The notes under the pieces are model-generated. The model made no database searches. It saw nothing but the letters and a program-made list of their open reading frames with translations, and was not told the origin of the DNA. Below, one piece after another: positions 4 through 7,012 of a DNA stretch of 21,460 nucleotides. Within the stretch, counting starts at the first letter, position 1, and each line of letters starts with the position of its first letter. The position numbers were made by a program, and so were the translations under genes. The stretch is from a virus. The stretch spans positions 1-21,460 of IMG/VR virus record IMGVR_UViG_3300042524_000042, one strand, 5' to 3'.

Positions 4-14
4 TTCTGATTGGT
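4..14 (-). promoter_or_regulatory. ACCAATC start-proximal element, copy 1
   Basis: The minus strand reads ACCAATCAGAATG, placing ACCAATC three bases before an ATG at 4..2. Only that start codon of the next leftward gene lies in the window, so the gene itself cannot be described. The 11-mer ACCAATCAGAA is identical to the one before the helicase-like gene at 3560..3570. The function is unknown. Confidence 0.6.
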
Positions 15-27
15 ATTAAATGTTCTC

Positions 28-57
28 CAAATATAATACAACTTTTCGGATTATCAA
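28..57 (-). promoter_or_regulatory. Bacteroidota-type promoter for the gene beyond the left edge
   Basis: On the minus strand TTG (57..55) is followed by 19 bases and TATATTTG (35..28). This matches the known Bacteroidota housekeeping consensus TTG/TTTG-N19-TAnnTTTG. It sits just downstream of a terminator (64..102) and about 24 bases before an ATG at 4..2, so it probably starts a new leftward transcript. Confidence 0.72.
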
Positions 58-63
58 CACTCC

Positions 64-102
64 AATAAAAAATAAATAAAAAAAGAGGACTACTTGCCCT
101 CT
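64..102 (-). terminator. Rho-independent terminator after the 45-aa gene
   Basis: The minus strand has a stem AGAGGGC / GTCCTCT (102..96 with 90..84, one G-T pair) around a five-base loop, followed by a T-rich tract. The stem overlaps the last codons of the small gene ending at 90. It closes the leftward operon before a new promoter at 28..57. Confidence 0.75.
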
Positions 103-227
103 CTAAATTGTGTGTAGCAAACTGCTATTGCTTGGTCTTTATTTGGGTACTCGCTTCCGATAGCCTCCAAGCAGCGTTGGATGTATTCGGATTGCTTTTC
201 ACCACTTTTGGGTTGAGGGATTGGCAT
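90..227 (-). CDS. Small phage protein of 45 aa, MPIPxP...GE type
   Basis: The ATG at 227 opens a 45-codon frame ending in TAG. The protein begins MPIPQPKSGE, continues with an EYIQRC stretch, and ends with an EYP-x6-AVCYTQ segment. I know this short pattern (Pro-rich start, Arg-Cys, then AVC) as a recurrent module in phage proteins, sometimes free-standing and sometimes fused to head proteins. Its function is not established. It overlaps the end of the upstream 168-aa gene by 29 bases, and its 3' end forms part of a terminator stem, so it looks like the last gene of this operon. Two cysteines are visible (Cys19 and Cys37). The reality of the gene is fairly certain from the motif; its role is not. 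Confidence 0.72.
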   Translation of the reverse strand: MPIPQPKSGEKQSEYIQRCLEAIGSEYPNKDQAIAVCYTQFREGK

Positions 228-705
228 AGGTTAAAACTTTGAATGAAACTAATCTTTGAATGTCTGGCAACTCAAGTCTGCTTATCACATCCTCCCTGCC
301 TTCTCTTTGGTAGTATTTTCTTGTAGCATCTTGCTTTGTCACAAACACAGGCTCTACAATCTGCTCACATAGCCGTGCAAGTTCTTGCGTTCTTACCATG
401 ACAAAACCACCAAGCTCTGGCATATCAAATGCGATGTACTCGGCTTTGCCGTACATCCATCCGTTATCTCCTTTTACGTTCTTAAACTCTACCCAGATGG
501 TATTGGGATGGTTGCCTCCTTTTACGTCTACGGATGTTGTTCCGTTTAGCCGTGTAACGAAGTAGTCAATGTGATCGTAGATGTCGGTGTTGCGGTCTGA
601 CTTCTCACAAGAGTAGCCGATGGCCTCGCAAGCCTCTACAAACCGCTTTGCAGTAATATCCCCAACTTGGTTGGAGTATTGCCTGCGCTCGTTACTAACT
701 GACAT
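199..705 (-). CDS. Candidate PD-(D/E)XK-fold nuclease, 168 aa
   Basis: I see a small protein with the layout of a PD-(D/E)XK endonuclease. Asp47 (in HIDYFV) is followed by SVDVKGG with Asp60-x-Lys62, then IWVEFKN with Glu73-x-Lys75, and then NGWMYGKAEYIAF. Hydrophobic strands carrying Asp and Asp/Glu-x-Lys are the hallmark of this fold, and a GW...G...YIAF segment after the core is often seen in such proteins. It may cut or resolve DNA during phage replication or recombination, but substrate specificity cannot be read from sequence. The ATG at 705 overlaps the end of the 134-aa gene by 11 bases, so the genes are probably co-translated. The RusA-type resolvase at 4428 means that resolvase activity is already covered, so another role is possible. 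The nuclease call is inference from motifs. Confidence 0.6.
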   Translation of the reverse strand: MSVSNERRQYSNQVGDITAKRFVEACEAIGYSCEKSDRNTDIYDHIDYFVTRLNGTTSVDVKGGNHPNTIWVEFKNVKGDNGWMYGKAEYIAFDMPELGGFVMVRTQELARLCEQIVEPVFVTKQDATRKYYQREGREDVISRLELPDIQRLVSFKVLTYANPSTQKW

Positions 706-1099
706 AAGCGTTGTATAGTGTCTCTAGTTCCTGCAACCTACCACGAAGGCATGAGCCGCAGTTGGTGGGCTTCACGGAGTCTTTGAACACTCGGTTGTAG
801 ATTCTATTCACTTCCGTCTGCTCAATAGCGGTGACGGTGTTCCTGCCTCGCATCTTGCCAACAAACTCGTATTCTTCTTTGGTCAAGCACTCTGGCTTCC
901 TGTACCGAAATAACTTGTTTAGTTTCTCCTTACGGGCATCGCAACCGCAGTCCACGCCTGTGGCTTCGCTAAACCAATCCACCGCAGCCTTGATGCCTGT
1001 GGCAGTTGTGATAGTCTCGATGGTATCACCCAAGCCGCTTGGCTTCTTTGTACGCTTCGTAGGTGTCTTGGCAGTCTTCTTGGATTCGCTCTCTTGCAT
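695..1099 (-). CDS. Cys-rich phage protein of 134 aa next to the sigma-like gene
   Basis: This protein has a Lys/Thr-rich N-terminus (residues 1 to 21), a GLGDTIETIT-x-ATGIKAAVDWF segment, and then cysteines at 51, 53, 71, 114 and 117. CGC...C and CGSC could bind zinc. I recognise the pattern as one that recurs in Bacteroidota phages beside a sigma-like protein, but I know no function for it. The ATG at 1099 lies 74 bases inside the end of the sigma-like gene, an unusually deep overlap. The overlap covers the low-complexity Lys-rich N-terminus, and there is no alternative ATG before Met83. A DNA-binding or sigma-partner role is possible only by context. Confidence 0.7.
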   Translation of the reverse strand: MQESESKKTAKTPTKRTKKPSGLGDTIETITTATGIKAAVDWFSEATGVDCGCDARKEKLNKLFRYRKPECLTKEEYEFVGKMRGRNTVTAIEQTEVNRIYNRVFKDSVKPTNCGSCLRGRLQELETLYNAYVS

Positions 1100-1562
1100 T
1101 TTTTAGTGTGTTGAATATGGAACGTGCTGAAATCTTGGTCTCATCCGCTAACGTGCGAATAGACATATCGGTGTTATGGTATAGCGCAAATATCTTTTTG
1201 TCGTACCAATGCCAGTCAGTTTGTGTTGACCACACCCTGTCGTAGAGTTGGATGAGTTGTACCTCCGCATCTTCGTTGGCCTCCTCGTAGATAAACTCCT
1301 CAAGGATGTCCACATCTACAAACTCAAACCTTGCCCTTTGACGCATCAACGTGGCGTACATATTTCGCAGAGTAACGTACACGAAGAAGGTGTTGACCTC
1401 CGTTTCGTTGTACATTATTTTCTCTGCGTCATCAACATACTTGTACAATCTGACGTACATCTCCTGCACAAGCTCTTGGGCAAGGTCATCACTCGCCCCG
1501 AAGCTCTTGCACATCCGAATCCAATCGGTCTGCCGCTTTGCTAATACTGCGAGGAGTCCCAA
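1026..1562 (-). CDS. Sigma-70-like transcription factor, 178 aa
   Basis: Residues about 20 to 50 (SFGASDDLAQELVQEMYVRL) resemble sigma region 2, in which DDLxQE is typical. Residues 57 to 78 contain a second helical stretch with TLRNMYATLMRQ, like regions 2.3/2.4. Residues 133 to 161 form a helix-turn-helix (SIRTLADETKISARSIFNTL) like region 4, as in small ECF-type sigma factors. It probably directs host RNA polymerase to a class of phage promoters. The start appears to be TTG at 1562; the first ATG in frame is codon 17, which would remove part of a segment that looks conserved. It overlaps the small gene at 1541 by 22 bases. It lies at the end of the early-type operon, as a late-gene activator might. 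The target promoters are not identifiable here. Confidence 0.72.
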   Translation of the reverse strand: MGLLAVLAKRQTDWIRMCKSFGASDDLAQELVQEMYVRLYKYVDDAEKIMYNETEVNTFFVYVTLRNMYATLMRQRARFEFVDVDILEEFIYEEANEDAEVQLIQLYDRVWSTQTDWHWYDKKIFALYHNTDMSIRTLADETKISARSIFNTLKNARERIQEDCQDTYEAYKEAKRLG

Positions 1563-1699
1563 GTAATTTCTACAATTACAACAAACAGAGCAAATTGCAC
1601 CGTGTGCATCACAATATCTTCTTCAAGGTAGTCGGTCTTTGACCAGTTAGCCCCTACGATAAGCCCATAGATTGGGTAAAGTCCTACGTTAAAATTCAT
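1541..1699 (-). CDS. Small membrane-type phage protein, 52 aa
   Basis: The ATG at 1699 opens a 52-codon frame ending in TAG. It begins MNFNVGLYPIYGLIVGANW and contains a second hydrophobic stretch, VQFALFVVIVEITW, near residues 34 to 47, with acidic residues between (DYLEED). The two hydrophobic parts suggest a membrane-associated or compact beta protein. It overlaps the end of the DnaA-like gene by 11 bases and the start of the sigma-like gene by 22, so it fits into a tightly packed operon. I have seen similar short sequences in Bacteroidota phages but know no function. It fills what would otherwise be a gap of about 125 bases. Confidence 0.65.
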   Translation of the reverse strand: MNFNVGLYPIYGLIVGANWSKTDYLEEDIVMHTVQFALFVVIVEITWDSSQY

Positions 1700-2108
1700 C
1701 AAATGTGCGTTTAAGAGTTAGATACAATTCCTTGTATTTAGATAACTCCGCAACGACTTCATTGAGTTTATTTAGTTCCAATTCTAAAGATTGAAAGTCG
1801 GGCTTATCAATGCAGGCCATCGGGTTCTCTTCAAGAACGCAGCAAGCGACCTTGTAGTAGTGCTGATAGTCCCCGTAGATAAGGCGGTCTTTGTGCATCC
1901 TTACGGCATAGGCTACGCTTGAATGGTCTTTGTCTATGGCCTCACCAAGTTCGTGCAGGGTTGCGTGGTTTCGGAATGCTGATACGAATGCTGCTCTTGC
2001 GGTGCTTTCTTTGTGCGCTCGGCTTCCGTTATCAGAAAAGCCCAGACGGGCGAAGTATTGCTCTTTAGATACTTTTAGTTGACGTAGTTCGAATGGTCTC
2101 ATTTGCAT
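1689..2108 (-). CDS. DnaA domain IV-like helix-turn-helix protein, 139 aa
   Basis: Residues 50 to 72 (TLHELGEAIDKDHSSVAYAV and following) match the signature of DnaA domain IV, where xLGxxxGxDHTTVxxA forms the helix-turn-helix that reads the DnaA box. Residues 33 to 48, also helical, fit the helix before it. There is no AAA+ ATPase domain, so this is a stand-alone DNA-binding domain with a Leu/Glu/Lys-rich helical tail (about 103 to 135) that could dimerise. It may bind origin-like sites in the phage or regulate transcription. Two in-frame ATGs lie at 2108 and 2102. It overlaps the neighbouring 76-aa gene by 10 bases. The DNA-binding call is fairly sure; the origin role is inference. Confidence 0.68.
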   Translation of the reverse strand: MQMRPFELRQLKVSKEQYFARLGFSDNGSRAHKESTARAAFVSAFRNHATLHELGEAIDKDHSSVAYAVRMHKDRLIYGDYQHYYKVACCVLEENPMACIDKPDFQSLELELNKLNEVVAELSKYKELYLTLKRTFDEF

Positions 2109-2329
2109 TTACAGAGTCTTGCTCTGCCCTCTTTATGATTGGTTATTACTTTGGTTATCGGCATAGTGAAGTGCTTGTGATCTTTTAGTCTTTTGAACTT
2201 CATCTCACTCGCCCATTCCACTAAATTGTCATCTTTGTCTTGTACGATAGTGTAGTCAACCACTAGGTAGTCCACCCCATCTACTGCAAAGCATTCGTAC
2301 TTCTGAAAGGGTGAGAGGATTTGCTTCAT
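2099..2329 (-). CDS. Hypothetical phage protein, 76 aa
   Basis: I do not recognise this protein. It starts MKQILSPFQKYECFAVDG, has a beta-type middle (DYLVVDYTIVQDKDDNLVEW) and a basic C-terminus ending in CKCK. Its ATG overlaps the stop of the 109-aa gene as ATGA, and its 3' end overlaps the DnaA-like gene by 10 bases, so it is translationally coupled on both sides. The Lys/Cys tail could contact nucleic acid, but that is a guess. Its position among replication genes is the only clue to its role. Confidence 0.62.
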   Translation of the reverse strand: MKQILSPFQKYECFAVDGVDYLVVDYTIVQDKDDNLVEWASEMKFKRLKDHKHFTMPITKVITNHKEGRARLCKCK

Positions 2330-2655
2330 AGCGAGTCCTCAATAATCCCTTGCAGGCGTTGTATCTCATAAATCATTTGTTCGCTATCAACTCGCAGCTT
2401 TGAGTTAGCCAAGTACATCTCATTCATTTTGCCCTCTGTGAACTGGCGGTAGTCAATAAACTGCTGAAGCAATAGGTCTGCGTAATGGCAAGACATGACG
2501 TGGTGCAGTAGGTCATCCTGTACCTCCCTGCCGTTTGCTTTGTCTGCTGCTTGCTTCGCCAACCACATCGCAGTTCCTGCAAGCATAAGTTGCTTCTCCC
2601 GAATGTAAAGGTCGTGTGAGTCATCAGAAGGGTACATCGCTCGCTGGTGTTTCAT
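2326..2655 (-). CDS. Hypothetical helical phage protein, 109 aa
   Basis: This protein is probably all-helical: residues about 14 to 75 are rich in Ala, Leu, Gln and His, and the C-terminal 35 residues (KLRVDSEQMIYEIQRLQGII) look like a coiled coil. I know no family for it. The ATG at 2655 lies 32 bases inside the end of the helicase-like gene; a second ATG at 2637 is possible but also inside. The stop overlaps the next start as ATGA. The position right after the helicase-like ATPase would suit a loader or accessory factor, but nothing in the sequence proves it. Confidence 0.62.
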   Translation of the reverse strand: MKHQRAMYPSDDSHDLYIREKQLMLAGTAMWLAKQAADKANGREVQDDLLHHVMSCHYADLLLQQFIDYRQFTEGKMNEMYLANSKLRVDSEQMIYEIQRLQGIIEDSL

Positions 2656-3556
2656 CTAATTTTATTGGCAGCAAGTTACGCCCATTTATCACAAAGCCAA
2701 CATTACCTAAAACGCTCTGCAAAACAAGCGGTGTCTCAAGGGGCGTGATGCGCCCACCAGATTCCATCTCCTTGACCTTACGAACATGGATGTGGGTGTA
2801 TATCCAATCGGTTTCGTGAGCCGCAAAGCGGTGAATCACGATTACACAGTCCGACCTGTTGCCCCACTTACCACCGCCTTCAATGTCTGATGTGTTTGGA
2901 GGCATAGCCATCCCCTCGTATTTGTGGCCTTTGTAGAATGTCTTGCGCATTGCCTCCGTTACTGGGTGAGCGTTGACTATGGTGGTGACGTTATTCTGAT
3001 GGGCAAACACCCGAAGGGCAGAGGCTACCTCGTAGTGATATTCGTGCATACCTGTCTTGCCTAATTTCTTTTGGTCTGTTGATAGGGAGTTGTATGGGTC
3101 TATCAAAGCACCTGTGTAGTTCCATTCGTTCTTAATGCTGCTCATAACCTCAAGTAGTTCAAAGGCGGTGAATAGCCTGTTGCCGTCTATGAATTGGAAG
3201 TACTCGTTGATGAAGTCCAACTTTCGGAACATCATCCCCTCATCAATACCTTGAATCGGTTTGCAAACTAGGAACTCAATTAACTTTCGCTTGAGGCTTG
3301 GCACTTCGTTCTCTGCCGAATAGATGAGCCACTTCTTGCCGAAGTTATACGACTGCAATAGCATAAGGTAAAGCAGCGTGTGGGTCTTGCCCACGTTGGC
3401 GTGGCCGACCACTACGACAAACTCCCCATCTTTAAGTCGTAGGTACTGATCTACTTCATAAACACCGAGCTTGCCCGTGTCGTAGTACTTGCCCTTTAAG
3501 GCTCTCTGGAGGTATGGTAACGAAGATTCGTTAGATAGTAGGTCGGGATGTATCAT
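2624..3556 (-). CDS. RecA/DnaB-fold ATPase, probable replicative helicase
   Basis: The protein has a Walker A motif GHANVGKT (residues 51 to 58) after a strand FVVVV, a Walker B-like strand GALIDPYNSL, a TTIVNAHP motif, and a late DIEGGGKWGNRSDCVIVIHR segment of the kind seen in DnaB/RecA-type phage ATPases. At 310 aa it is about the size of a lone helicase core, with no primase or DnaB N-terminal domain visible. It probably unwinds DNA at the phage fork, or acts as a recombination ATPase. The last residues are SDVPF, similar to the acidic-Pro-Phe tail of SSB proteins. The start ATG at 3556 is preceded by its own TATATTTG promoter element and an ACCAATC motif, after a strong terminator, so its operon is transcribed independently. 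Confidence 0.78.
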   Translation of the reverse strand: MIHPDLLSNESSLPYLQRALKGKYYDTGKLGVYEVDQYLRLKDGEFVVVVGHANVGKTHTLLYLMLLQSYNFGKKWLIYSAENEVPSLKRKLIEFLVCKPIQGIDEGMMFRKLDFINEYFQFIDGNRLFTAFELLEVMSSIKNEWNYTGALIDPYNSLSTDQKKLGKTGMHEYHYEVASALRVFAHQNNVTTIVNAHPVTEAMRKTFYKGHKYEGMAMPPNTSDIEGGGKWGNRSDCVIVIHRFAAHETDWIYTHIHVRKVKEMESGGRITPLETPLVLQSVLGNVGFVINGRNLLPIKLDETPASDVPF

Positions 3557-3559
3557 TGA

Positions 3560-3570
3560 TTCTGATTGGT
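3560..3570 (-). promoter_or_regulatory. ACCAATC start-proximal element, copy 2
   Basis: The minus strand reads ACCAATCAGAATCAATG, with ACCAATC seven bases before the helicase ATG. The 11-mer ACCAATCAGAA is the exact inverted complement of a segment spanning the stop codon of the upstream gene (3645..3655), so the two could pair in a read-through RNA. Confidence 0.6.
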
Positions 3571-3573
3571 GAG

Positions 3574-3581
3574 CAAATATA
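3574..3581 (-). promoter_or_regulatory. TATATTTG -7 promoter element of the helicase operon
   Basis: TATATTTG on the minus strand matches the Bacteroidota TAnnTTTG element. It lies 18 bases before the helicase ATG and just after a terminator. A good TTG/TTTG at the expected -33 distance is lacking; the T-run of the terminator occupies that place, so the promoter may be weak or need an activator. Confidence 0.55.
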
Positions 3582-3596
3582 ACAAAATAATTGACA

Positions 3597-3623
3597 TAAA
3601 AAAACCCCTCCGTAGAGGGGCTT
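3597..3623 (-). terminator. Strong rho-independent terminator after the SSB-like gene
   Basis: On the minus strand the stem CCCCTC / GAGGGG (3620..3615 with 3610..3605) closes a four-base loop TACG. It can be extended by AAG with TTT, and is followed by seven Ts. This is the clearest terminator in the window. It separates the SSB-like gene's transcript from the helicase operon. Confidence 0.9.
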
Positions 3624-3644
3624 CACACAACGACCTAATATAAA

Positions 3645-3655
3645 ACCAATCAGAA
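3645..3655. repeat. Inverted partner of the ACCAATCAGAA element
   Basis: The plus strand here reads ACCAATCAGAA, the exact inverse of 3560..3570. It spans the TGA stop of the SSB-like gene. Together the arms enclose the terminator and the -7 promoter element of the helicase operon. Confidence 0.6.
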
Positions 3656-4075
3656 AGGGTCGTTGCGATTTGCGAAATGCTCGGTGTGTGATGCAGGAGC
3701 AGCACTCTGCCCAGTCATCCAAGCGTTAAAGGTCTCTGCGTTGGCAAGGATGGTGTTGACATCGTGTTGCGCAGCACAAGCGTACTCCACCGCAGACTTC
3801 AAAGCAACCTGTCGGATGATAGAAGCGGAACGGTCATCGTTGCCTTTGGGTGCAGCAGATGGCGTGTAGCCTCCACCACCACCAAAAGCATTGGCACGTT
3901 GGATTTTCACCGTACCCTTTTCGTTCTTGGTGTACTCCACGTCTTCGCCTACGGCATAGGGTGGGGTCTGTGATTTGGCAAATGCAGTACCGAAGTCTCC
4001 ATTGTCAAAGCGAACCTCAAGCTTGAATAAATCTTGCCATTGGCCTGTCGGGGTGATAGAAATAATTTTTGACAT
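3650..4075 (-). CDS. Single-stranded DNA-binding-like protein, 141 aa
   Basis: Residues 1 to about 62 form a beta-rich domain (ISITPTGQWQDLFKLEVRFD ... VGEDVEYTKNEKGTVKIQRA) that fits a small OB-fold. A Gly-rich linker (FGGGGGYTP) follows, then a helical segment DDRSASIIRQVALKSAVEYA, then an unstructured Ala/Ser tail ending NRNDPF. This layout (OB domain, Gly-rich linker, short acidic-Pro-Phe tip) is that of SSB proteins, whose tips recruit replication partners. The helical RQxALKxAVE segment is typical of small phage ssDNA-binding proteins. The ATG at 4075 has ACCAATC four bases upstream. The neighbours are a helicase-like ATPase and a resolvase, which fits. The assignment rests on layout and motifs, not on a clear family match. 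Confidence 0.65.
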   Translation of the reverse strand: MSKIISITPTGQWQDLFKLEVRFDNGDFGTAFAKSQTPPYAVGEDVEYTKNEKGTVKIQRANAFGGGGGYTPSAAPKGNDDRSASIIRQVALKSAVEYACAAQHDVNTILANAETFNAWMTGQSAAPASHTEHFANRNDPF

Positions 4076-4079
4076 AATA

Positions 4080-4086
4080 GATTGGT
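4080..4086 (-). promoter_or_regulatory. ACCAATC start-proximal element, copy 3
   Basis: The minus strand reads TAAAACCAATCTATTATG. The element starts one base after the stop of the coiled-coil gene and ends four bases before the ATG of the SSB-like gene. Confidence 0.6.
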
Positions 4087-4087
4087 T

Positions 4088-4228
4088 TTAGATAAATAGA
4101 ATTGATTGCTGCTCCAATACATCAATACGAGCTTGAAGCTCTTGTATCTTGTTTTGAAGTGCTTGGATTTGTGCTTGTTGCACTTGCACCATCTCGGTGT
4201 AAACGTCTGATGAGAATGATAAAGTCAT
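4088..4228 (-). CDS. Small coiled-coil protein, 46 aa
   Basis: The ATG at 4228 opens a 46-codon frame ending in TAA. After MTLSFSSDVYTEM, the rest is a Gln/Leu-rich heptad pattern (VQVQQAQIQALQNKIQELQA and on to VLEQQ) typical of a short coiled coil that would oligomerise. I know no family for it. It fills the space between two other genes exactly, with ACCAATC elements both before its start and just after its stop, which supports its being a real gene. It could be a partner or adaptor for the replication proteins nearby, but no function can be assigned. Confidence 0.68.
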   Translation of the reverse strand: MTLSFSSDVYTEMVQVQQAQIQALQNKIQELQARIDVLEQQSILFI

Positions 4229-4233
4229 AACTT

Positions 4234-4240
4234 GATTGGT
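4234..4240 (-). promoter_or_regulatory. ACCAATC start-proximal element, copy 4
   Basis: The minus strand reads TAAAACCAATCAAGTTATG. The element begins one base after the stop of the 50-aa gene and lies five bases before the start of the coiled-coil gene. No TAnnTTTG promoter element is visible just upstream, so this copy works, if at all, on a continuing transcript. Confidence 0.6.
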
Positions 4241-4241
4241 T

Positions 4242-4394
4242 TTACATATTGATGTTACGATTAGAAAGCGTTTGCCTAAAAATTTCTTTCATACCAAGAG
4301 CGTTCTTCTTGTCCGTTCGGGTAGTAGCAGTTTCAAGTTTCGCAGACCATGTGTTGTAAAACTCAAGTAGGCGTTCAGTAGATAAATGTTGCAT
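4242..4394 (-). CDS. Hypothetical small protein, 50 aa
   Basis: The ATG at 4394 opens a 50-codon frame ending in TAA. The sequence (MQHLSTERLLEFYNTWSAKL, then TDKKNALGMKEIFRQTL) is charged and probably made of two or three helices. I do not recognise a family. It is the first gene behind the best-matching Bacteroidota promoter of the window (4416..4446) and has ACCAATC three bases before its ATG, so it is very likely expressed. Its operon continues into the coiled-coil and SSB-like genes and ends at the terminator at 3597..3623. Confidence 0.68.
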   Translation of the reverse strand: MQHLSTERLLEFYNTWSAKLETATTRTDKKNALGMKEIFRQTLSNRNINM

Positions 4395-4397
4395 AAT

Positions 4398-4404
4398 GAT
4401 TGGT
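4398..4404 (-). promoter_or_regulatory. ACCAATC start-proximal element, copy 5
   Basis: The minus strand reads AAAACCAATCATTATG, with the element three bases before the ATG of the 50-aa gene and 11 bases after the TATATTTG box, so it lies at the expected 5' end of this transcript. Confidence 0.6.
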
Positions 4405-4415
4405 TTTAAGTTATG

Positions 4416-4446
4416 CAAATATACAACTTATTCTGATACCAACAAA
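4416..4446 (-). promoter_or_regulatory. Consensus Bacteroidota promoter for the SSB-like operon
   Basis: TTTG (4446..4443), 19 bases, then TATATTTG (4423..4416) on the minus strand. This is a full match to the TTTG-N19-TAnnTTTG consensus. It lies inside and just past the 3' end of the RusA-like gene and drives the 50-aa, coiled-coil and SSB-like genes. Confidence 0.82.
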
Positions 4447-4787: not shown

Positions 4788-5041
4788 TTATCGGGGATCA
4801 GATAGCCGCATTGTATTGCGAAGTGCAGGTCTATCTTGGCAATCTCACCCAGTAGCTCTTGTTCTTTGTACTTCGCCTGTTGGCGAGCTTGGTATGTGGC
4901 TTCGCAGTTAGACATTAGCGTAGCGCACTCCTCAAGGATGAAGTCTATCTTTCTGCGTTTGGCAGGGTTAGTATAGTACTGCATATCGGCCTGTTGTTGT
5001 TTGGCTTCCTTCGCTTGTTGCGCTAATGGTTTGCTGCTCAT
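4784..5041 (-). CDS. Hypothetical helical phage protein, about 85 aa
   Basis: I do not recognise this protein. From the ATG at 5041 it begins MSSKPLAQQAKEAKQQQADM, a Gln/Ala/Lys-rich helical segment, followed by NPAKRRKIDFILEEC and a coiled-coil-like stretch of Gln, Glu and Lys, ending GYLIPDN. The frame is open to an ATG at 5092, and another ATG lies at 4984. I prefer 5041 because upstream of it the frame looks like a shadow of the DUF3310-like gene. The overlap with that gene (74 bases) remains large, so 4984 (17-base overlap) is also possible. The stop is coupled to the RusA-like start by a 4-base overlap. Confidence 0.55.
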   Translation of the reverse strand: MSSKPLAQQAKEAKQQQADMQYYTNPAKRRKIDFILEECATLMSNCEATYQARQQAKYKEQELLGEIAKIDLHFAIQCGYLIPDN

Positions 5042-5973: not shown

Positions 5974-6399
5974 TCAAAAGGTGAGGTACTTGGTTTTGCC
6001 ATTGTGCTTTACTGCTTTTAGGATTTGTTTTCGGTTCTTGCTACTTGAGTAACTAACGTGAACCCACGATGGCGCAGTATCAGAGCCAAATTCCCAAATG
6101 AGTTGGTCAAAGTCTAAATTGTCTTTAATCCAATGGAACAAGACATCGTTGCCTGCTTCGCACTTGAGGTCGGCTGCTTGAGCCTGTACGTGCTGCGAGG
6201 TCTTTGCTCCCCCTACTTTGCTATTCACCGCAGGGCTGCGGTATGCACTTGTCACTTTCACCGCACCTAATGCGTCTCTTGTGGGTTGTAAGACGTTTTC
6301 TGCCAACGCACGGAGGTTGGGTTCCAAGTGCTTGGGTAAAGCGTTAGGAAGCCCTGTTTTTGTAGCAGTCAGTTCTGCGAGGGTAAAGTTCTTGGTCAC
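5974..6399 (-). CDS. M15-family peptidase endolysin, 141 aa
   Basis: This is a single-domain M15 peptidase (VanY/L-alanyl-D-glutamate peptidase type) that cuts peptide cross-bridges in peptidoglycan. The pattern NFTLAELTATKTGLPN at the N-terminus is common to the family. SAYRSPAVNSKVGG precedes the zinc site SQHVQAQAADLK (His70-x6-Asp77), and SWVHVSY supplies His114; Glu103 in LIWEFGS is a candidate catalytic residue. No signal peptide is seen, so release should depend on a holin. The start is GTG at 6399; no ATG precedes the conserved NFTLAEL segment. Upstream lies a 161-base gene-free region with dyads. It is followed by the candidate spanin and preceded by holin-like genes. Confidence 0.9.
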   Translation of the reverse strand: MTKNFTLAELTATKTGLPNALPKHLEPNLRALAENVLQPTRDALGAVKVTSAYRSPAVNSKVGGAKTSQHVQAQAADLKCEAGNDVLFHWIKDNLDFDQLIWEFGSDTAPSWVHVSYSSSKNRKQILKAVKHNGKTKYLTF

Positions 6400-6479: not shown

Positions 6480-6557
6480 TGTGCCTTTAATTGCACAATT
6501 TGTAGTCATAATGTACATTAAAACGTACATTAACAGGTAAAGTGCGCCTTAATGCAC
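6480..6557. repeat. Three evenly spaced dyads upstream of the endolysin
   Basis: Three inverted repeats with the same 8-base centre lie here: TGTGC-N8-GCACA (6480..6497), TAATGTAC-N8-GTACATTA (6509..6532) and GTGC-N8-GCAC (6542..6557). The centres are 32 and 29 bases apart, about three helical turns. The flanks share TTAAT words. I see no gene and no clear TAnnTTTG box in 6400..6560. A cooperative protein-binding array is the simplest explanation. Confidence 0.5.
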
Positions 6558-6852: not shown

Positions 6853-7012
6853 CTTTGTCCTTCTTGTAGTCCCTTCGCCACTTCCAAAGAGTGTACGCAA
6901 GTGAGGTTACAAGTACGGCTAAACCCAACGCTTGATGGGCGTAGCTTACGAGAAGTCCTGCTCCCGTTAAAGACCAAGACGTGATTACGCTATCAGCCGA
7001 CTCCTTTGTCAT
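6842..7012 (-). CDS. Small membrane protein of the lysis cassette, 56 aa
   Basis: The ATG at 7012 opens a 56-codon frame ending in TGA. After a polar start (MTKESADSVITSW), a hydrophobic region runs from about residue 14 to 43 (SLTGAGLLVSYAHQALGLAV, then LVTSLAYTLW). The tail is strongly basic (KWRRDYKKDKGAN). One long or two short membrane helices with a basic tail fit a holin or antiholin. It overlaps the coiled-coil gene by 20 bases and the next membrane-protein gene by 11. With two holin-like genes in a row, a holin/antiholin pair is possible. Confidence 0.65.
   Translation of the reverse strand: MTKESADSVITSWSLTGAGLLVSYAHQALGLAVLVTSLAYTLWKWRRDYKKDKGAN

Follow-up and report, generated by a model that had tools for sequence, protein, structure and literature searches.

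What reads a seven-base element, ACCAATC, that recurs just ahead of the start codons of different phage genes? We took up this question in a virus record from IMG/VR (IMGVR_UViG_3300042524_000042; the window, that is, the whole stretch of 21,460 bases that was analysed). A first-pass annotation, made from the letters of the window, had listed five copies on the minus strand, and we re-found all of them, together with their gaps to the ATG (3, 7, 4, 5, and 3), exactly as claimed. Eight further copies are present in the window. Seven lie elsewhere, and one, on the plus strand at 3645-3651, is the complement of a hairpin loop at the 3′ end of a gene that we tentatively label SSB-like. This last copy was absent from the earlier list and proved decisive. 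From the sequences we could establish the hairpin, the complementarity of its loop to the start-adjacent copies (tags), covariation of its stem, and loops and tags that match each other in three clades, with neither present in six outgroup loci. We consider it highly probable that the tag is the target of a phage antisense hairpin that would pair with it in trans over the ribosome landing site, most likely as a repressor.

The start-adjacent element and its complement

The tags and the promoter boxes near them are as follows (nt, nucleotides; ORF, open reading frame; aa, amino acids).

8-14, minus strand: leader tag ACCAATC, then AGA, 3 nt before the ATG at 4 (gene cut by the window end)
28-35, minus strand: TATATTTG promoter box, upstream of the tag at 8-14
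3564-3570, minus strand: leader tag ACCAATC, then AGAA, 7 nt before the ATG at 3556 (DnaB-like helicase)
3574-3581, minus strand: TATATTTG promoter box, 3 nt ahead of the tag in the helicase leader
4080-4089, minus strand: leader tag AAAACCAATC (ACCAATC at 4080-4086), 4 nt before the ATG at 4075 (SSB-like gene)
4234-4243, minus strand: leader tag AAAACCAATC (ACCAATC at 4234-4240), 5 nt before the ATG at 4228 (46-aa coiled-coil-like ORF)
4398-4407, minus strand: leader tag AAAACCAATC (ACCAATC at 4398-4404), 3 nt before the ATG at 4394 (50-aa ORF)
4416-4423, minus strand: TATATTTG promoter box of the operon 4394-4228-4075-hairpin

ACCAATC occurs 13 times in the window on both strands, against a mean of 2.44 (standard deviation, 1.66; maximum, 7) in 100 dinucleotide shuffles. 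Two of the tags (ACCAATC at 4080-4086 and 4234-4240) stand one base past the TAA stop codon of the preceding gene, inside the operon, as had been described. The annotation was also right to place copies behind promoters, although it counted two where three of the five have a perfect TATATTTG box, which we take to be a Bacteroidota-type promoter. The orientation is one-sided; a start codon follows 1 to 8 nt downstream in 373 of 694 distinct contexts, compared with 99 of 671 for the reversed motif. The earlier view that ACCAATC is not a Shine-Dalgarno sequence also holds, since the tag lacks a GGAGG-type core and the one Bacteroidota 16S ribosomal RNA locus checked contains none of the complements GATTGGT, ATTGGTT, TTGGTTT, and TGATTGG.

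The partner lies in the SSB-like gene.

3626-3667, minus strand: hairpin RNA with arms CGCAACGACC (3658-3667) and GGTCGTTGTG (3626-3635) and a 22-nt loop
3641-3656, minus strand: loop sequence UUUCUGAUUGGUUUUA, the reverse complement of the leader tag UAAAACCAAUCAGAAA; it holds the UGA stop codon of the SSB-like gene
3598-3623, minus strand: intrinsic terminator-like hairpin with T run, directly 3′ of the loop hairpin

The loop sequence UUUCUGAUUGGUUUUA complements the tag including its usual AG(AA) extension and can form 11 to 15 bp with each tag in the window; when 77 starts are ranked by duplex energy with the loop, the four called tagged starts take ranks 1 to 4. The five window leaders alone are nearly unstructured (0 to −0.4 kcal/mol), and the loop and terminator hairpins fold together at −30.1 kcal/mol. 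The locus thereby combines the display of a complementary sequence in the loop of an RNA secondary structure, as expected of an antisense RNA, with a location at the 3′ end of an mRNA beside an intrinsic terminator, as expected of a small RNA derived from a 3′ untranslated region (3′UTR). Since no TAnnTTTG box was found within the SSB-like gene of the window, the hairpin RNA would come from the mRNA 3′ end, either as a processed product or within the mRNA itself. Relatives with an SSB-like protein of 43 to 47% identity have the same arrangement and keep the loop unchanged. A comparison of the hairpin with Rfam returned no C4, CI, or other family, and the four weak matches (17.6 to 21 bits) were all below the gathering scores.

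Matched loops and tags in three clades

One scan of IMG/VR yielded 303 helicase relatives. The annotation's reading implied conservation in relatives, and AAAACCAATC indeed recurs before different genes of these phages, with differing flanks. Besides loci of the window's type (T1), two further types, from sister clades, were recognized. T2 and T3 relatives, whose helicases are 66 to 70% and SSB-like proteins 61 to 62% identical to those of the window, have the same hairpin and terminator with other loops: T2 has the stem GCAGTCC/GGACTGC and the loop UUUUUAGUGUGUGUGUUUUUUA (core GUGUGUGUUU), and T3 has the stem CCAGTC/GACTGG and the loop UUUUAGGUGUUUCA (core UUUUAGGUGUUU). In both types the leaders complement their own loop, as in AAACACACACACAATG and, before the helicase, AAACACACAGAATG in T2, and AAACACCTAAAACAATG and AACACCTAAAACTATTCTAATG in T3. 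Complementarity has thus been kept in T1 to T3 through change on both partners.

The match between type and tag was counted with the search motifs AACCAATC (T1), AAACACAC (T2), and ACACCTAA (T3), a pre-ATG site being a motif that ends at most 12 nt before the ATG of an ORF of at least 30 aa. Sites of the three motifs numbered 602/4/2 in 166 T1 loci, 1/40/0 in 22 T2 loci, and 3/0/62 in 43 T3 loci (counts that leave out L251-L287 and take overlapping loci on one contig separately). Distinct contexts gave 168/2/2, 1/8/0, and 2/0/18, respectively, and with the 12 T1 loci numbered from the tag search removed, the remaining 154 gave 551/3/2. Leaders that complement 8 nt or more of the T1, T2, and T3 loops were distributed 104/3/6 among 3677 in T1 genomes, 3/12/1 among 438 in T2 genomes, and 5/2/15 among 801 in T3 genomes; letter-shuffled own loops (300 shuffles) averaged 10.0, 2.1, and 2.3, with maxima of 93, 12, and 14. 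Duplexes of −13 kcal/mol or stronger followed the same trend, own loops forming them with 2.3 to 5.9% of leaders. In a helicase tree of 32 rows, obtained after thinning at 95.5% identity within type, T1 (19 rows, 95/88), T2 (3 rows, 100/99), and T3 (4 rows, 93/98) each occupied one side of a branch, as did the outgroup (6 rows, including L403; 100/100).

The genes concerned are varied. Proteins downstream of tags formed 19 clusters with at least 5 sites, and in T1 there were 26 protein clusters tagged in at least two loci (a few of them resembling chance), including the helicase, the SSB-like gene, small ORFs, and a 259-aa protein. Five clusters bear the tag of their own genome's type: the small ORF before the SSB-like gene, in all three types (its 46-aa and 53-aa forms are linked by single linkage of short proteins and by their same place, a link that is weak by sequence); a small membrane-like ORF, also in all three; the helicase, in T1, in T2 (21 of 22 leaders with AAACACAC), and in T3 in L449 only; the family of the window's 50-aa ORF, in T1 and T2; and a 65-aa family, in one T1 locus and two T3 loci. 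When 14 records of 16 to 32 kb were searched whole, the tag pattern matched 4 to 8 times per record and its backward control 0 to 1 times; for one of these records, G307 (from L155), the part examined has no match to any of five window proteins, and its membership is not established. Distinct single-base variants of the tag in aligned leaders comprised 8 C-to-T, 5+1 A-to-G, and 2 C-to-A changes. Pairing is kept by G-U in 14 of 16 variant leaders, which is weak support because most transitions would keep it.

The stem varies as well. Its arms are CGACC/GGTCG in clade A; GTCC/GGAC, GCCC/GGGC, or GCC/GGC in clade B; GTCACC/GGTGAC in clade C; and GGTGCC/GGCACC in clade D, with AGTGCC/GGCACT in L211. 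For alignment, 15 of 25 B-D hairpins and nine of 18 from clade A were picked by eye against near-copies. In the 15 B-D hairpins 86.7% of cells pair and 24 are double-changed, matched by 0 of 500 shuffles; the full set of 25, which has 13 distinct arm pairs, gives 66 paired cells out of 78 and 20 double changes, matched by 0 of 2000. Exchange of arms between clades A/B and C/D costs ca. 5 to 11 kcal/mol, compared with 0 to 4 within A/B, while the 5′ arm of C with the 3′ arm of D still folds at −12.2.

Genes resembling tRNAs follow the hairpin on its 3′ side in certain T3 and clade C phages (L439:8806-8926 and L199:4387-4451). The former matches the Rfam tRNA family at 44.2 bits over 121 nt, with long insertions, and the latter at 26 bits, below the cutoff; ARAGORN found no tRNA in six loci. 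Processing of these genes could trim the hairpin RNA.

Beyond the three types, six outgroup loci (L378, L398, L399, L401, L402, and L404) have an SSB-like gene before the helicase and terminator folds; over the stop codon they show nothing like the large-loop hairpins of the window (W), L304, and L429. Their helicase leaders (5 distinct) lack tags, and over their 56.8 kb there are two pre-ATG matches to AACCAATC and one to AAACACAC. An initial outgroup of seven had held L403, which belongs to a marine lineage, and the count was redone with six; L400, which is outgroup-like, lacks the region and was left out. L403 itself has a weak hairpin (−3.5 kcal/mol) whose loop carries a 12-nt match to its own SSB-like leader. 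The scan to which this match led gave a mixed result, and we do not claim a fourth type in L403 or its lineage. Relatives of L403 made up 80 of 184 scanned (L509-L588, marine). AATCAATC stands before starts in this lineage at 61 sites in 20 distinct contexts (compared with 0 to 4 in T1-T3 loci), mainly before the SSB-like gene among the sites listed, and 14 of 42 distinct copies of the marine SSB-like gene have a complement of at least 10 nt between leader and 3′ end. A 3′ element, TTGATTGATTGTGTTAGG, is also found behind other genes in some L509-L588 loci, and another start-adjacent sequence, AAAGAGAG, precedes at least 38 different N termini there.

A second start-associated leader, (CCTTTAA)CACCAACGAGAAATG, was seen before small ORFs in at least 120 viral contig stretches, some of more than 100 kb. 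It resembles the main tag (ACCAA..AGAAATG), and no antisense partner was found for it in four genomes or among 14 candidates. Its sites include the following, with others elsewhere.

L277:4277-4291, 4982-4996, 6045-6059, and 6522-6536: CACCAACGAGAAATG leader
L207:6500-6514 and 6993-7007: CACCAACGAGAAATG leader

A number of observations weigh against an antisense hairpin as the partner of the tags. Taken singly, the hairpins have modest folding z-scores (mean, −1.27; below −2 in 8 of 43, a set of distinct hairpin cores from which windows of less than 80 nt were dropped). Clade A alone is nearly invariant, with one double change, and 57 of 500 shuffles are equally good. Part of the loop (UUC UGA) doubles as coding sequence. 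Copies of the own-type motif also occur away from starts (460 in T1, 44 in T2, and 67 in T3); the tag is missing before the ATG in 42 of 43 T3 helicase leaders, and the T2 and T3 SSB-like leaders have none. A shuffled T2 loop reached the observed 12, and shuffled loops sometimes match well because the leaders are A rich. In the outgroup, up to 2.1% of leaders form strong duplexes. The types cannot be told apart by a looser 7-base tag pattern, whose T1 version occurs in 20 of 22 T2 loci; the loose own-type pattern (present in 166 of 166, 22 of 22, and 43 of 43 loci) does not separate the types and was not used as evidence. In the marine lineage, exchanged partners of leader and 3′ end match as often as the true ones (477 of 1710), and no partner was found for AAAGAGAG, with its 77 pre-ATG sites. 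Given these marine tags without a matched partner, the rule that joins tag and loop is not general; judged by sequence comparison, matched loop and tags are established for T1 to T3 only.

It may be added that codons 2 to 4 of the T3 helicase (e.g., L429:5195) often read AAACACC, a complement of the T3 loop. Because other clades share these codons, this may be chance.

Predicted action, alternatives, and genomic setting

The window genes that enter the proposal are listed here.

2624-3556, minus strand: DnaB-like replicative helicase or primase-helicase (profile search), predicted target
3650-4075, minus strand: tentative SSB-like gene with the hairpin at its 3′ end (five-stranded N-terminal domain, DPF tail, adjoins the helicase)
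4088-4228, minus strand: 46-aa ORF, predicted target, shares an operon with the SSB-like gene
4242-4394, minus strand: 50-aa ORF that opens the operon, predicted target

We propose that the 3′ end of the SSB-like mRNA, just before its terminator, displays the loop, which would pair with the tags before early-gene starts, whether these belong to the hairpin's operon or to units with other promoter boxes. Since the helicase and the gene at 4 each lie behind a separate box, they would be reachable only in trans, while the operon that makes the hairpin has three tags, so that feedback would be built in. The duplex would cover about −4 to −17, the region of ribosome landing, in which ribosomes of Bacteroidota rely on A-rich sequence in place of a Shine-Dalgarno sequence, and pairing would most likely block initiation. 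In Flavobacterium johnsoniae, which does not use Shine-Dalgarno sequences, A's are overrepresented around −14 to −11, and A's at −12, −13, −3, and −6 favor initiation, according to the available part of the source (PMC6847099). We prefer repression because the duplex would hide such initiation-relevant positions; once pairing is granted, repression appears to us the probable result. Its outcome would be feedback or an early shutoff coupled to how the SSB-like operon is expressed. The production and stability of the RNA, the form it takes (a free small RNA or the mRNA end), repression as its effect, and its purpose are matters that we infer.

The same pairing might instead activate, with the loop protecting or remodeling the 5′ ends of early mRNAs and so raising translation. 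Three tags do lie close behind TATATTTG boxes, near presumed 5′ ends that pairing could protect. However, the window leaders are unstructured, so that pairing would have no inhibitory fold to undo, duplex and ribosome footprint overlap, and two of the tags are internal to the operon. We regard activation as unlikely.

The first-pass annotation had named an RNA-binding protein, a small RNA, or a ribosomal preference as possible readers. Of these the small RNA has gained support, whereas a single RNA-binding protein does not account for complementary loops that come in three matched sequence types. Another reading, that the tag is a leader preference of the phages or their hosts with no partner RNA and that the repeats have other origins, might draw on CACCAACGAGAAATG, AATCAATC, and AAAGAGAG, which are start adjacent with no partner found. 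Yet T1, T2, and T3 tags each fit the loop of their own clade, and GATTGGT is missing from the 16S locus noted above. The pattern AAAACCAATCN{2,4}ATG occurs 0 to 9 times per genome in 296 Bacteroidota genomes (at least one match in 177), which is rare against the 4 to 8 in related records of 16 to 32 kb, although the backward control is lower still, a mild excess of the tag in hosts. A host-wide leader as the origin of the tag was rejected on this rarity; a ribosomal preference is unlikely for this tag, and a leader preference with no partner RNA seems very improbable.

Even less is to be said for a double-stranded-DNA-binding repressor or nucleoid-type protein, for which the SSB copy would be one more site in the other orientation. 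Such a protein would fit the closeness of sites to promoter boxes and, once the hairpin copy is included, their occurrence in both orientations. Against it stand a position tied to the start codon even inside operons, the one-sided orientation, and, in clades A to D, an SSB copy set in the loop of a covarying hairpin, which a DNA site would not need; we give it only a slender chance. The annotation's preference for RNA-level or translational control over a DNA operator is thus upheld, both by the position and orientation of the tags and by a loop that changes with them. That the tags are recombination linkers shuffling small-gene cassettes, with a loop match that is fortuitous or a by-product, is similarly far-fetched, for although many small nonhomologous ORFs are preceded by tags, the tag alone is shared between differing flanks, and linkers would not be expected to show tag and loop replaced as matched sets in two clades.

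One speculative extension of the antisense proposal is a “lock and key” regulon, in which one loop controls a set of early genes, the code is replaced as a set, and the codes serve as RNA-based exclusion groups. As hairpin and tags would act in trans, coinfecting kin with the same code would be shut off and those with other codes spared, and such exclusion pressure would explain the divergence of the codes. This is a bold analogy with the heteroimmunity of C4 RNA (see below), and we hold it to be possible but rather doubtful.

As for the setting, searches named a DnaB-like helicase, a RusA-like resolvase, a weak sigma-like factor, and an M15-type peptidase among the window proteins; on our reading of the ORF list, virion-type genes lie on the right side. 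The sigma-factor-like protein (1026-1562, minus strand; Pfam Sigma70_r2, E value of 0.009; PHROG sigma factor, E value of 0.0009) is a possible regulator of phage timing. The SSB-like protein had no Pfam family at an E value of 0.01 and two weak matches among PDB sequences. Its AlphaFold2 model (mean predicted local distance difference test score, 72) has a helical C-terminal part and the DPF tail, with no Foldseek match at an E value of ≤0.001 and some OB-fold proteins among the weak matches, so the label is tentative. The host is presumably a member of the Bacteroidota, as suggested by the TATATTTG boxes, a promoter type of that phylum, and by distant relatives in Cellulophaga, Maribacter, and Nonlabens phages: helicase relatives at 25 to 32% identity and, in Nonlabens phages P12024L/S, capsid-type relatives at 33%. 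No close cultured relative of the group turned up in the phage records searched, and hairpin DNA gave only short matches against cultured phages (38 records, the best covering 23% of the query). Among genome contigs, 55 helicase-pattern stretches, examined for a host, contained no relative. The 20 matches to the hairpin pattern in genome contigs were scattered over phyla, with no tagged starts in the stretches examined, and were taken as chance.

Relation to known systems

No such system was found in open-licence PubMed Central (PMC) papers, and the exact letters AACCAATC, ACCAATC, and GATTGGTTT led to no related paper there. Several known systems share parts of the arrangement; the sources cited here were available in part. 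C4 RNA of phages P1 and P7 binds the ribosome site of ant mRNA, probably through loop-borne complements, and blocks its translation, and it is involved in heteroimmunity between kin phages (PMC12197685). Here, too, a loop-displayed antisense sequence over the ribosome site is proposed, from sequence. Unlike C4, with its one target mRNA, a single loop matches the tags of many genes behind several boxes, and the hairpin lies at the 3′ end of a protein gene. In satellite phage P4, the processed CI RNA pairs with the short leader sequences seqA and seqC, and replication genes are kept off (PMC4825925). That RNA acts by transcription termination, whereas the tags described here abut start codons, two of them mid-operon.

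The closest likeness in placement is to SAS of cluster K mycobacteriophages, an asymmetric repeat typically 3 to 7 bp before the starts of nonstructural genes from many families, mostly in one orientation and absent from the host, for which an RNA or a protein reader was considered (PMC3203893). The window's element likewise lies within a few base pairs of nonstructural gene starts in one orientation. It is not the 13-bp GGGATAGGAGCCC-type sequence with an AGGAG core, its consensus being AAAACCAATC, AAACACAC, or AACACCTAAAAC. SAS has a Shine-Dalgarno core, and the available part of its description reports no partner RNA, in contrast to the lack of such a core and the complementary, covarying hairpin found here. 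Small RNAs derived from 3′UTRs, such as the glutamine synthetase and prtV examples, are, in the available descriptions, likewise regulatory RNAs at the 3′ end of a coding transcript; the present candidate differs from these bacterial RNAs in being phage borne, in displaying its pairing region in a loop, and in having the phage's own early genes as predicted targets.

The matched replacement of a loop and of the tags before several unlinked genes constitutes strong sequence evidence for a base-pairing regulon. It also offers a candidate reader for start-associated phage repeats, a question that the available part of the SAS paper leaves open (PMC3203893), and it suggests a way in which phages may control translation in those Bacteroidota that do without Shine-Dalgarno sequences. 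Three natural loop/tag pairs are available for testing, in a phage group that is abundant in IMG/VR. We file the system as a variant of phage trans-acting antisense RNA, outside the C4, CI, and SAS families.

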